A DNA stretch of 34,948 nucleotides from Clostridiales bacterium (GTDB lineage Bacteria; Bacillota; Clostridia; Oscillospirales; Ruminococcaceae), in contig JAAYSW010000029.1 of NCBI GenBank assembly GCA_012523875.1, positions 1 through 34,948 on the forward strand. Reading direction: 5' to 3'. The notes below the pieces were generated by a model. That model worked only from the letters and a program-made list of their open reading frames with translations, was not told where the DNA came from and searched no databases. Both the position numbers and the translations under genes were made by a program. Below, in pieces: positions 22,779 through 31,324 of this stretch. Position 1 is the stretch's first letter, and each line of letters starts with the position of its first letter.

Positions 22779-22913
22779 TTAATGTGAGAGTCTAGCTCTG
22801 CCTCTAGCTCTTCTGCGAGCTAAAACCTTGCGACCGCTTTTTTTAGACATTCTCTTTAAAAAACCATGCTCTCTTTTTCTATGCAATTTCTTTGGCTGAT
22901 AAGTTCTTTTCAT
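22779..22913 (-). CDS. rpmH: 50S ribosomal protein L34
   Basis: Read directly: [44 protein letters not shown]. Absent from ORF track because of size. Confidence 0.98.
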
Positions 22914-23147
22914 AACCTTAAAGCCCCCTTTCACAAAACTAACTAGATTTTAATACTTGGGTATATTAATACATCATCAATTTCTATTTTAAATATAAGT
23001 AAATACAATGTTGTATGCGTACAACCCTACAAAGTAGATTATATACTAATAAATCTTACATGTCAAGCAATTTATAAAATATTTTCTCAAAAATAAGTTA
23101 TAATTATTCTATTTCATAAAACTTATTATTTTTATAGCAGTTGATTA

Positions 23148-23184
23148 TAATTTTCAACATTTATTTATTTAATGTTGAAAATTA
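23148..23184. repeat. 14-bp perfect inverted repeat TAATTTTCAACATT / AATGTTGAAAATTA, possible DnaA-box pair or operator upstream of dnaA
   Basis: Direct reading; arms 23148-23161 and 23171-23184, 9-bp spacer. Confidence 0.75.
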
Positions 23185-23391
23185 CTCTTGCAAATCTATA
23201 CTTTATATGATATAATAAATATGATTTTATAATAAGTAAGTTGTATATTTCAATAGCTATTTTTTATTCGCTTTTTGATCATATTCTCTACTTAATTCTT
23301 TTTTTTTTTGTTTTTTATTGACTTATTATATATTATAATACTTAGGTTTCGTTACATATTATTTGGATTTCGGTTTTAAGGAGGCAAGGGT

Positions 23392-24753
23392 ATGAATTCC
23401 TTTGAGGATGTATTTGAACATGTAAAAAAATATTGCATCGATGTTGGGGATATCGGTGAGGTTGCTTTGAAACTTTGGATTAATGCATTAGAACCCCAAG
23501 AACTTAATGGTTCCGACGCAATCTTCCATGTCCAGTCGGACTTTCAAAAAGGTGTTATTATTAATAATTATGAAAAGCTTCTTAAAGAGGCTTTTAAAAC
23601 CATACTTGGGTTTGATATAAATTTAATTATTATCACAAAAACAGAAGAACCTGTTAACCATCAGGTTGATTTCGAGGAGATTGAACAAAAGCATCTTCAG
23701 CTTGAAAAAAGTTTTGAAACTGCTGAGTATGATTACACTTTCGATACTTTCATAGTAGGTCGCTCCAATGAATTTGCATATGCTGCTTGTACCGCTGTTG
23801 CAAAGGATGCTTCTAAAGGAAGTACATATAATCCTCTTTTTATTCATGGACCTTCGGGGCTTGGTAAAACTCATCTTATTACCGCAATTGCAAATGAAAT
23901 GAGAAAAAATAATTCTGCCCTAAATATTATTTATGTAAGTGGTGAGGCTTTCGCTAATGAACTTATTGATGCAATTAAAATGAGAAAAGATACCACACAA
24001 TTCCATGATAAATACCGTAATGCTGATGTTCTTCTTGTCGATGATGTTCAGTTTATTGCTGGAAAAGAAAGTACCCAAGAGGAATTTTTCCATACATTTA
24101 ATAAGCTTCATCAACAGGGAAGACAAATTGTTTTGACTTCGGACAAACCACCGAAAGATATTAAAACTCTTGCAGAAAGAATTCGTTCTCGATTTGAAGG
24201 AGGACTTATTGCTGACGTTTCAACTCCAGATTATGAAACAAGAATTGCCATTATAAAAAGAAAAGCTGAACTTCTTGAGTTGAATATTCCTCATGAGGTC
24301 GCTGAATTTATTGCAAATAGGCTTAAAACTAATATTAGGCAACTTGAGGGAGCAGTAAAAAAACTGAAAGCCCTTAAACATCTTGCGGGAAGTCAACCAT
24401 CTATTTCCATGGCACAAAGCGTTATTCGTGACATTTTAAATGATGATCAACCTATTCCAATTACTGTTGAAAAAATTATAGCTGAGGTTTCCAATGTTTA
24501 TGGAGTGTCTCCTGAGGATATTCGCTCTAGTAAGCGTTCATCACAGATTTCAAACGCAAGAAAAGTTGCTATTTATGTTGTTCGTGAGATTACACAGATG
24601 CCACTTCAATCAATTGGACTTGAATTCGGTGGACGTGACCACTCTACTATAGTATATGCGATTAATAATATAACAGCGGGGATAAAAAAGGATTCTAATT
24701 TAAAGGAACTTGTTGAGGATATTATTAAAAATATTAGAGATAAGGGAAAATAA
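23392..24753 (+). CDS. dnaA: Chromosomal replication initiator protein DnaA
   Basis: 453 aa; FIHGPSGLGKTHL, VLLVDDVQFIAGKESTQEEFFHTFN, FGGRDHSTIVYA; AGGAGG upstream. Confidence 0.99.
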   Translation: MNSFEDVFEHVKKYCIDVGDIGEVALKLWINALEPQELNGSDAIFHVQSDFQKGVIINNYEKLLKEAFKTILGFDINLIIITKTEEPVNHQVDFEEIEQKHLQLEKSFETAEYDYTFDTFIVGRSNEFAYAACTAVAKDASKGSTYNPLFIHGPSGLGKTHLITAIANEMRKNNSALNIIYVSGEAFANELIDAIKMRKDTTQFHDKYRNADVLLVDDVQFIAGKESTQEEFFHTFNKLHQQGRQIVLTSDKPPKDIKTLAERIRSRFEGGLIADVSTPDYETRIAIIKRKAELLELNIPHEVAEFIANRLKTNIRQLEGAVKKLKALKHLAGSQPSISMAQSVIRDILNDDQPIPITVEKIIAEVSNVYGVSPEDIRSSKRSSQISNARKVAIYVVREITQMPLQSIGLEFGGRDHSTIVYAINNITAGIKKDSNLKELVEDIIKNIRDKGK

Positions 24754-24771
24754 AGATAAAAAGGATGTCGA

Positions 24772-25278
24772 ATGAACGAATTTCATAATAGTTTTGGGGA
24801 AATTGTACTATCTGTTTTATTTATTTTATTCGTCTTTTATATCATTTATAGGATATATAGATGGCTTAAACCCACGCCTTTACCATATGTAAAAAAAACA
24901 CTTCTAAGTAAGAATGAGTTAAGGTTTTACGAAAAACTTAGACAAATTACAAAAAAATATGATGTACACATTTTAAGTAAAATTAGGATGGCGGACATTG
25001 TTGAGGTAAAAAAAGGTCTAAAGCGTGAGGAATGGAGTAAATATTTTAATAAAATCAAGTCAAAGCATGTTGATTTTGCTCTTGCTGAACCAGATACCTT
25101 AGAAATTCTGGTACTTATTGAACTTGATGATAAATCTCATGCCCAAAAGGATAGGATTGAGAGGGATATTTTTGTTGATAAGGTCTATTCAGTTACCAAT
25201 ATTCCCATTATACATACCTATGGGAATGATATGGAAACGCTTGAACAGCTAATTGATACTATATTAGAAACAGTCTAG
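24772..25278 (+). CDS. Membrane-anchored DUF2726-domain protein (restriction-endonuclease-fold-like)
   Basis: 168 aa; N-terminal TM VLSVLFILFVFYIIYRIY, then LLSKNELRFYEKL, KHVDFALAEPDTLEILVLIELDDKSHAQKDRIERDIFVDKV characteristic of DUF2726. Confidence 0.8.
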   Translation: MNEFHNSFGEIVLSVLFILFVFYIIYRIYRWLKPTPLPYVKKTLLSKNELRFYEKLRQITKKYDVHILSKIRMADIVEVKKGLKREEWSKYFNKIKSKHVDFALAEPDTLEILVLIELDDKSHAQKDRIERDIFVDKVYSVTNIPIIHTYGNDMETLEQLIDTILETV

Positions 25279-25365
25279 CACCCTCTATATATAGTATAAA
25301 AAGATAATTCTGGTAAATAATATATAATTATGTTATAGTTTCTTTTAACAAGATACAACACTCAC

Positions 25366-25707
25366 TTTCAACAATGTTGTTAAATAATCAACCTTTCAAC
25401 AACACTTTCAACATATGTTGAAAACTCCAAAACAGGCTTGACCTTTGCAATATAGAAACTTAATCATTTATTTTTTAAAATTTAAACAGTTTTTAATATT
25501 AATATTTTCACAGCTTGTTAAATGTTGAAAACTATAACTCGCACTTTCCACAAAACTTTCAAGAAACTTTCCTTTTCAACAGAAGTTTTTTCAACAGATT
25601 AAACACAAAATTTATCTTTTAACATATCCACATTTTCTCCTAATTCCATTGTTGATGAACTAACACTGGCTGTTACGTGGTTTTGTGCTGGTTTCAAGTT
25701 TTCCACA
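25366..25707. repeat. Cluster of DnaA-box-like 9-mers in oriC: TTTCAACA-type (25366, 25394, 25406, 25415-, 25522-, 25573, 25588) and closer-to-consensus TTTCCACAA (25545), ATATCCACA (25624), TTTTCCACA (25699)
   Basis: Direct reading against TTATCCACA; located between dnaA and dnaN. Confidence 0.75.
25406..25423. repeat. 18-bp perfect palindrome TTTCAACATATGTTGAAA in oriC
   Basis: Direct reading. Confidence 0.9.
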
Positions 25708-25770
25708 GCCCCTACTACTACTACTATCTTAATATATATATATATTATTATTTATATATAATAAACCTTT
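25699..25770. other. oriC: oriC basal unwinding region: DnaA box TTTTCCACA, GCCC, five CTA triplets (DnaA-trios on the other strand), then AT-rich DUE
   Basis: TTTTCCACAGCCCCTACTACTACTACTATCTTAATATATATATATATTATTATTTATATATAATAAA; same architecture as the B. subtilis BUS. Confidence 0.88.
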
Positions 25771-25891
25771 TTTAATTTTCTCCTTTTGTTAAAAGGCTTT
25801 GCCAATAAGAAAGTTACAATTAGTATAATTTAAAGTTTTACTAATTGTATAATCAAATATAATATTAAAATAATAGAGAGGATTTACAAAG

Positions 25892-26989
25892 ATGAAATTC
25901 AGTTGCGATAAAACAAAAATATGTGAGGCTATTAATAATGTTTCAAAAGCAGTTGCAATTAAATCAACTATGCCTGCTTTAGAAGGTATTAAATTAGTGT
26001 TGTCAAACAATATACTGGAGCTTACTGGTTATGATTTAGAAATAGGTATAAGAACACAAATACAAGTTAAATCTGAAGATTCAGGAGAATATGTAATAAA
26101 TGCAAGACTTTTTAGTGAAATTACAAAACGTATGCCCGATGGGGAACTCCTATTCTTTATAGATGAAAATCTTAATGTAAGAATTTCTAGCGGGGTAACT
26201 GAATATGATATTTCTGCTTATTCATCTGATGAATATCCAGATTTACCTACTATGGAAAATGAAAAGCAATTTAATATTACTCAAAGTGTATTTAAAAGCA
26301 TGATTAACCAAACTATATTTGCCGTTTCTACAGTTGATAATAAACCTATTCTAACTGGCGAATTATTTGATATTGAAGATGGTGTTTTTAACCTTGTTGC
26401 AATTGATGGATATAGGCTTGCTATAAGAACTGAAAATATAAATTGTAGTGAAAAGTTTTATTTCGTAGTACCCTCAAAGGCTTTAAACGAAATTGCAAGG
26501 TTACTTAAAGATGATGAAGATTTATGTAATGTTTTTGTAAGTGATAGGCATATTATGTTTGATATTAATGGTTATTACTTCTTCTCTAGGCTACTTGAAG
26601 GAGATTTCCATAATTATAAAACAAGTTTATTTAATGATTTTAAAACTGAAGTAATTGTTAAAACAAGGGATTTCCTTAATAGCCTTGAGCGATGCTCCTT
26701 GCTAATAAGTGAAAAACATAAGGCTGCTGTTAAATGTAATTTTAATACAAGTGAAATGCAAATTGATTGTAAAACTGCTATAGGTAAGGTAAGTGATGAG
26801 ATTAAACTTGACCTAAATGGCGACCCTGTTCTTATAGCTTTCAATAATAAATATATTATGGATGCTCTTAAAGCATCAGAAAGTGATAAGGTAAAAATCC
26901 ATATGAATGGTTCAAATAGACCGATAAAGATATTGCCAATGCAGGGGGATAGCTATACATTTTTGCTGATGCCTGTTGCATTAAAATAA
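25892..26989 (+). CDS. dnaN: DNA polymerase III beta sliding clamp
   Basis: 365 aa; MKFSCDKTKICEAINNVSKAV, LEGIKLVL, C-terminal TFLLMPVALK. Confidence 0.97.
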   Translation: MKFSCDKTKICEAINNVSKAVAIKSTMPALEGIKLVLSNNILELTGYDLEIGIRTQIQVKSEDSGEYVINARLFSEITKRMPDGELLFFIDENLNVRISSGVTEYDISAYSSDEYPDLPTMENEKQFNITQSVFKSMINQTIFAVSTVDNKPILTGELFDIEDGVFNLVAIDGYRLAIRTENINCSEKFYFVVPSKALNEIARLLKDDEDLCNVFVSDRHIMFDINGYYFFSRLLEGDFHNYKTSLFNDFKTEVIVKTRDFLNSLERCSLLISEKHKAAVKCNFNTSEMQIDCKTAIGKVSDEIKLDLNGDPVLIAFNNKYIMDALKASESDKVKIHMNGSNRPIKILPMQGDSYTFLLMPVALK

Positions 26990-30649: not shown

Positions 30650-31324
30650 ATGGGAGAATTGAGTTTGGAGAATTATGATAACCCAATAATTGAAAAAGAA
30701 TATAATATACCTCTTGATATTTTTAATAAGGCTTTTACAGCCTTTCAAAAGAAGTTTATCTACCCTAAAACATACATTATGACATTTTGCTATGTTTTTA
30801 TTATCATATGGCAAGTTACCCTCATTGCAAGGGATATTGCTAGTAGCATTTCTGGTTTTATAATTGCAATTAGTATTTTTGCTATTTTTATTTCATGGTA
30901 TAACCCAAGGAAGATTAAAAATAATCTTTTGATATCAATTAAAGAAATAGAAACTGATTTATATAAATTCAAGCTTTATGAAGATTCAATTGCTCTCCTT
31001 GCATTATCAAAGGAGGAGATATATTCCATTAGTAATCCTCAAGAAGAAGCTGAAACTAGCGAAAAATTAGAAGTTCTAGATAACCCTGAAAATGAAGGAA
31101 ACTATGATATTTTTGAGGGGGATACAACAAATGATAGCATGAAAAAAGCTACTTTTTTGATATTTGATAATGCTTATTTTTCAATTATTGAAAAAGAAGA
31201 ATTTTATATGCTTTATCAATCTAAAGTTGTGTTCTATGTTGTGCCAAAAAAAGATTTTACAGAACCAGAAATTTTGCAGATGAATGAGCTTTTTAAAGAA
31301 AAGTTAGGTAAGAGGTTTTCGTAA
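30650..31324 (+). CDS. Membrane protein with YcxB-like C-terminal domain
   Basis: 224 aa; two TM segments, then FLIFDNAYFSIIEKEEFYMLYQSKVVFYVVPKKDF. Start uncertain (TTG at 30665 fits GGGAG better). Confidence 0.7.
   Translation: MGELSLENYDNPIIEKEYNIPLDIFNKAFTAFQKKFIYPKTYIMTFCYVFIIIWQVTLIARDIASSISGFIIAISIFAIFISWYNPRKIKNNLLISIKEIETDLYKFKLYEDSIALLALSKEEIYSISNPQEEAETSEKLEVLDNPENEGNYDIFEGDTTNDSMKKATFLIFDNAYFSIIEKEEFYMLYQSKVVFYVVPKKDFTEPEILQMNELFKEKLGKRFS

Follow-up and report, generated by a model that had tools for sequence, protein, structure and literature searches.

A membrane-anchored DUF2726 gene with a predicted nuclease fold between dnaA and the replication origin in a genus of Ruminococcaceae

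In a Clostridiales bacterium of the family Ruminococcaceae (assembly GCA_012523875.1, contig JAAYSW010000029.1, positions 1 to 34,948; the whole stretch of 34,948 nucleotides is referred to as the window), a gene encoding a transmembrane (TM) protein with a DUF2726 domain was found between dnaA and the DnaA-box cluster of oriC. Based on the results below, we suggest that the protein is probably a membrane-tethered nuclease of an ordinary kind with a REase fold, whose gene was relocated to the dnaA unit in the ancestor of the genus, and is not dedicated to the origin. The features of the locus are as follows.

23151..23181, no strand: inverted TTTTCAACA pair 5' of dnaA, apparently the other half of a bipartite origin
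23392..24753, plus strand: dnaA, probably co-transcribed with the ORF downstream, from which no terminator-like site separates it
24760..24766, plus strand: Shine-Dalgarno sequence AAAGGAT, 5 nt 5' of the ORF ATG, kept in the congener
24772..25278, plus strand: TM-DUF2726 gene, 168 aa, PF10881 95 bits, intact in the congener
24790..24861, plus strand: N-terminal TM helix, about residues 7-30, from hydropathy and the AlphaFold helix 2-32
24895..25263, plus strand: DUF2726 core with a REase-like fold and invariant E49, D101, E117, D120, H123 and D132
25365..25707, no strand: oriC DnaA-box cluster, mainly of the variant TTTTCAACA
25699..25765, plus strand: basal-unwinding-like element (DnaA box, GC cluster, DnaA-trios, AT-rich DNA)
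25699-25707: TTTTCCACA DnaA box, part of this element
25708-25712: GCCCC cluster, directly after the TTTTCCACA box
25713-25727: DnaA-trios TACTACTACTACTAT, followed by AT-rich DNA
25892..26989, plus strand: dnaN

The ATG of the gene is separated by 18 bp from the stop codon of dnaA (24751-24753), and the coordinates, protein length and gap reported in the first-pass annotation agree with the sequence. Its DUF2726 assignment was confirmed as well: the PF10881 profile matched residues 42-164 over profile positions 2-123 of 126 with 94.6-95 bits, the Pfam cut-off being 24.7 bits. This is the sole DUF2726 gene detected in the source MAG, which is 80% complete. The Pfam score, the conserved Shine-Dalgarno sequence and a dN/dS of 0.145 rule out a chance ORF. 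Weaker Pfam matches to ABC2_membrane_3, thioredoxin-like and cadherin families fell below the cut-off and were rejected as due to the TM helix or to chance. No Rfam families were found at 22900-26000, nor were solved structures with sequence homology to the protein.

The surroundings of the gene are those of a textbook Bacillota origin. To the left of dnaA lie genes which, from knowledge of their families, we take to be parB-like/parA, rsmG, gidA, mnmE, jag, yidC, rnpA and rpmH, and to the right of the origin there are presumably dnaN, an S4-domain gene, recF, gyrB and gyrA. Between gyrB and gyrA, a YcxB-like membrane protein gene was observed (30650-31324), and the congener has an ORF of comparable length (217 aa, L090 1964-2614) at this place. 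The cumulative GC skew of the window has its minimum at ~22-26 kb. The interval between the ORF and dnaN contains four copies of TTTTCAACA (0.04 expected), three of CTTTCAACA, and one each of CTTTCCACA and TTTTCCACA, and the origin looks bipartite because of the inverted TTTTCAACA pair upstream of dnaA. The arrangement of a DnaA box followed by DnaA-trios is that of the basal unwinding system (PMC6669920), and the order of DnaA box, DnaA-trios and AT-rich DNA 5' of dnaN resembles Bacillota origins with such a system, as in the incC region of Bacillus subtilis (PMC6669920); in contrast to the incC type, a protein gene here precedes the box cluster, and most boxes are TTTTCAACA. Thus, the gene does stand between dnaA and the unwinding element, as had been proposed, and the complete unwinding region lies 3' of the ORF and 5' of dnaN. 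The origin downstream of the ORF is intact and of the Bacillota type.

Regarding the boxes themselves, TTTTCAACA (CAACA for CCACA) is the commonest DnaA-box-like 9-mer of the genus, far over chance, and in the congener it is the box adjoining the DnaA-trios (downstream spacer of L058). It is common to some other genera of the family (L064, L068 and L073), with 12 copies in L068. The recognition motif of DnaA, GGRDHSTIVYA, is ordinary-looking in spite of these boxes.

No terminator-like sites were found between dnaA and the ORF, and a promoter scan gave no excess over shuffled sequences. The ORF is probably read from the dnaA transcript, in line with the co-transcription suggested earlier.

The genus was represented by two species, the window and the congener G001 (JAAYPV010000041.1, also a 'Clostridiales bacterium' MAG). 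In the congener, the order of dnaA, DUF2726 gene and origin is identical, the gap being 17 bp and the Shine-Dalgarno sequence unchanged, so the arrangement is not limited to one strain. An assembly or binning artefact was ruled out, since the junction is common to two separate MAGs of different species. The DUF2726 proteins share 76% identity and the DnaA proteins 96%. Between the two species, the dN/dS of 0.145 for the whole gene corresponds to 0.115 in the core and 0.216 in the TM segment, compared with 0.129 for jag and 0.111 for rnpA nearby; the gene is under purifying selection and is not decaying. At about 1, its dS is the same as for the flanking genes, and the gene has therefore been in place since the common ancestor of both species.

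The first-pass annotation had read the D...ExD pattern of the core as reminiscent of PD-(D/E)XK folds, and the structural results support this reading. The AlphaFold model (24-sequence alignment) has a pLDDT of 94.3. Its helix at residues 2-32 leads into a core ordered alpha-beta-alpha-beta-beta-alpha-beta-alpha, whose second strand (99-105) carries D101 and whose third (112-118) carries E117. The order of elements fits the alpha-beta-beta-beta-alpha-beta core of the PD-(D/E)XK superfamily. The top-ranked PDB structural matches were mostly of the REase fold (BstEII, 3ijm, TnsA, BsoBI, BpuSI), although they were weak (best E 0.009), and those in the viral library were restriction enzymes, DUF2726 and a VSR homing endonuclease. 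E49, D101, E117, D120, H123 and D132 are invariant across 24 diverse members and present in both species of the genus. Among the relatives, 15/21 also matched the REase_MTES_1575 HMM and 8/21 that of DUF559 (E<=0.1; best 1e-6). The modelled nuclease fold of the protein is thus supported, and it is a fold already known for the family, DUF2726 having been described as a REase-fold DNase in published work (PMC3710099).

The motif D101...E117-x-D119, accompanied by His123, carries Asp in place of the canonical Lys, as in Vsr-like/DUF559 relatives. With ExD where ExK is canonical, an inactive, nucleic-acid-binding role is possible, and the protein could then be a membrane-tethered DNA-binding adaptor with a catalytically dead nuclease fold. 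This is unlikely: the acidic residues and His123 are invariant even in very distant members, as expected of a Vsr/EDxHD-type active site. EDxHD and PD-(D/E)xK nucleases have a common active-site architecture (PMC3943268). The predicted fold and the D...ExD...H...D pattern are shared with the DUF559, REase_MTES_1575, Vsr-like and EDxHD nucleases. The window protein itself falls below the DUF559, REase_MTES_1575 and Vsr-like Pfam models, however, and unlike all these nucleases it has a membrane helix and is without a recognition domain or intron.

Among DUF2726 (PF10881) proteins, it corresponds to the TM subtype, with a full-length domain, the conserved residues and the N-terminal TM helix; it differs from some members in being without their C-terminal topoisomerase-type zinc ribbon. 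The same nuclease domain occurs fused to helicase-like or AbiJ-NTD3 proteins (PMC3710099), but these are large soluble multidomain proteins encoded by frames of about 900-1000 aa. In Avibacterium paragallinarum, transposon insertions in a DUF2726 gene were among those with increased biofilm (PMC13119452), a rare phenotype for this family.

The single N-terminal TM helix noted earlier was supported both by the model and by hydropathy (Kyte-Doolittle mean of 2.44 over 19 residues). The C-terminal flank of the helix is rich in Arg/Lys, which by the positive-inside rule suggests an N-out/C-in topology with the DUF2726 core in the cytoplasm. One such helix was found in nearly all stand-alone DUF2726 proteins, in several phyla; therefore, the anchor is a feature of the family and not an adaptation to oriC.

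A membrane anchor, a predicted DNA-acting fold, purifying selection, and a place after dnaA and ahead of the DnaA-box cluster in the two species are consistent with the role proposed in the first-pass annotation, in which the protein would tether, process or regulate the origin. On that account, it would bind or nick oriC, or hold the origin or DnaA at the membrane, and the control of initiation would be served by its synthesis being linked to dnaA. The survey of other genomes did not bear out such a link. DUF2726 relatives of the window protein were found in 38/398 genomes of the same GTDB-type family, so that most genomes are without DUF2726, and the family cut-off was passed in 37/396 genomes of the order sample and 52/398 of the phylum sample. 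None of about 80 DUF2726 loci outside the genus (family, order and phylum) was adjacent to dnaA or dnaN. The dnaA-dnaN spacers of 28 related genera contained no comparable ORF, with lengths of 307-798 bp where complete, which confirms the non-coding spacer as the usual layout; origins of this type thus occur in related genera that do not carry the gene there. In the nearest other genus (G157), whose DnaA is 78% identical, the spacer is 425 bp and likewise holds no comparable ORF.

Based on these loci and genera, the association with dnaA is a trait of one genus: linkage to dnaA/oriC did not recur across lineages and was seen in the window's genus only (2/2 species), the post-dnaA position setting this protein apart from other DUF2726 members. 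According to the tree, the window pair falls inside a clade of 14 same-family sequences (support 96/81) with mixed contexts. Relatives show the same TM+DUF2726 layout away from origins, and in the close ones the gene lies in unrelated contexts. It is the position in two species that makes an origin-specific role possible, and we consider a protein dedicated to the origin improbable. Equally improbable is the specific form of this idea in which the dnaA transcript yields a membrane-anchored REase-fold protein that acts on oriC or anchors it, thereby coupling initiator synthesis to the processing of the origin or its attachment to the membrane. With two species in the genus sample, the protein may nevertheless have acquired a new, genus-specific role at oriC.

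The contexts of the relatives are diverse. In seven genomes (L031, L033, L035, L038, L110, L111, L112), a small XRE/HTH_3-type gene lies directly 5' of TM-DUF2726, with gaps of 1-26 bp; four of these seven genes contributed to the local HTH profile, the other three are independent of it, and Pfam confirms three. The two genes may represent a two-gene module. A gene for a XerC-like tyrosine recombinase adjoins or lies within a few kb of 4-6 TM-DUF2726 genes in several genera (L032, L033, L039 and L053, also L042 and L100). The genes flanking xerC differ between genera, and in the window's genome xerC lies on a separate contig and has no DUF2726 neighbor; the ORF may have moved from an ancestral site beside xerC. 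In L042/L104, what appears from reading of the sequence to be a membrane-anchored NERD-domain-like protein is encoded directly 5' of TM-DUF2726, which would put tethered nuclease-like domains of two different kinds next to each other. Other TM-DUF2726 genes follow genes that we take, from reading their sequences, to be coaBC, alr and mutS2. The lack of a single conserved partner is what one would expect of a mobile function that is carried by one gene and tolerates many host operons.

TM-DUF2726 is a widespread but patchy family. This patchiness, the REase fold and the XRE-HTH gene directly 5' in the seven relatives, an arrangement characteristic of regulated conflict genes, would also suit a nuclease that breaks down phage or plasmid DNA on its entry or processes such DNA during uptake. 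The housekeeping contexts of coaBC, alr and mutS2 speak against this, restriction or methylase partners were not seen, and neither the window protein nor that of the congener matched any PADLOC model, even at E values up to 10. In favor of it, fusions of DUF2726 with AbiJ-NTD3 occur in proteins proposed to act in abortive infection (PMC3710099). Such a function in defence or DNA entry is a tentative alternative, with a real though lesser chance of being correct.

We therefore return to the reading proposed at the outset, that of an ordinary membrane-tethered nuclease in a new location. The gene would encode a small protein anchored in the inner membrane, its REase-fold domain of the Vsr/DUF559/MTES_1575-like kind facing the cytoplasm, predicted to be a metal-dependent nuclease on DNA near the membrane, whether incoming, damaged or recombining; catalysis is suggested by the conserved residues. 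In the genus ancestor, one TM-DUF2726 copy would have been relocated to the end of dnaA, leaving the downstream origin unbroken, and the relocated gene would be read from the dnaA transcript. Because relatives lie elsewhere in other genomes, the place beside dnaA probably results from a local relocation and is no evidence of an origin-specific protein. The position would provide dnaA-linked expression and a high gene dosage, and action on oriC would not be required.

These results indicate that the dnaA-dnaN spacer can accept an unrelated coding gene with the unwinding element intact. A membrane-bound oriC factor with a nuclease fold would be a rarity and would bear on how origins meet the membrane, if the protein did act there. 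More broadly, TM-DUF2726 is a common and almost unstudied family of membrane-anchored REase-fold proteins, often encoded after a gene for an XRE regulator.
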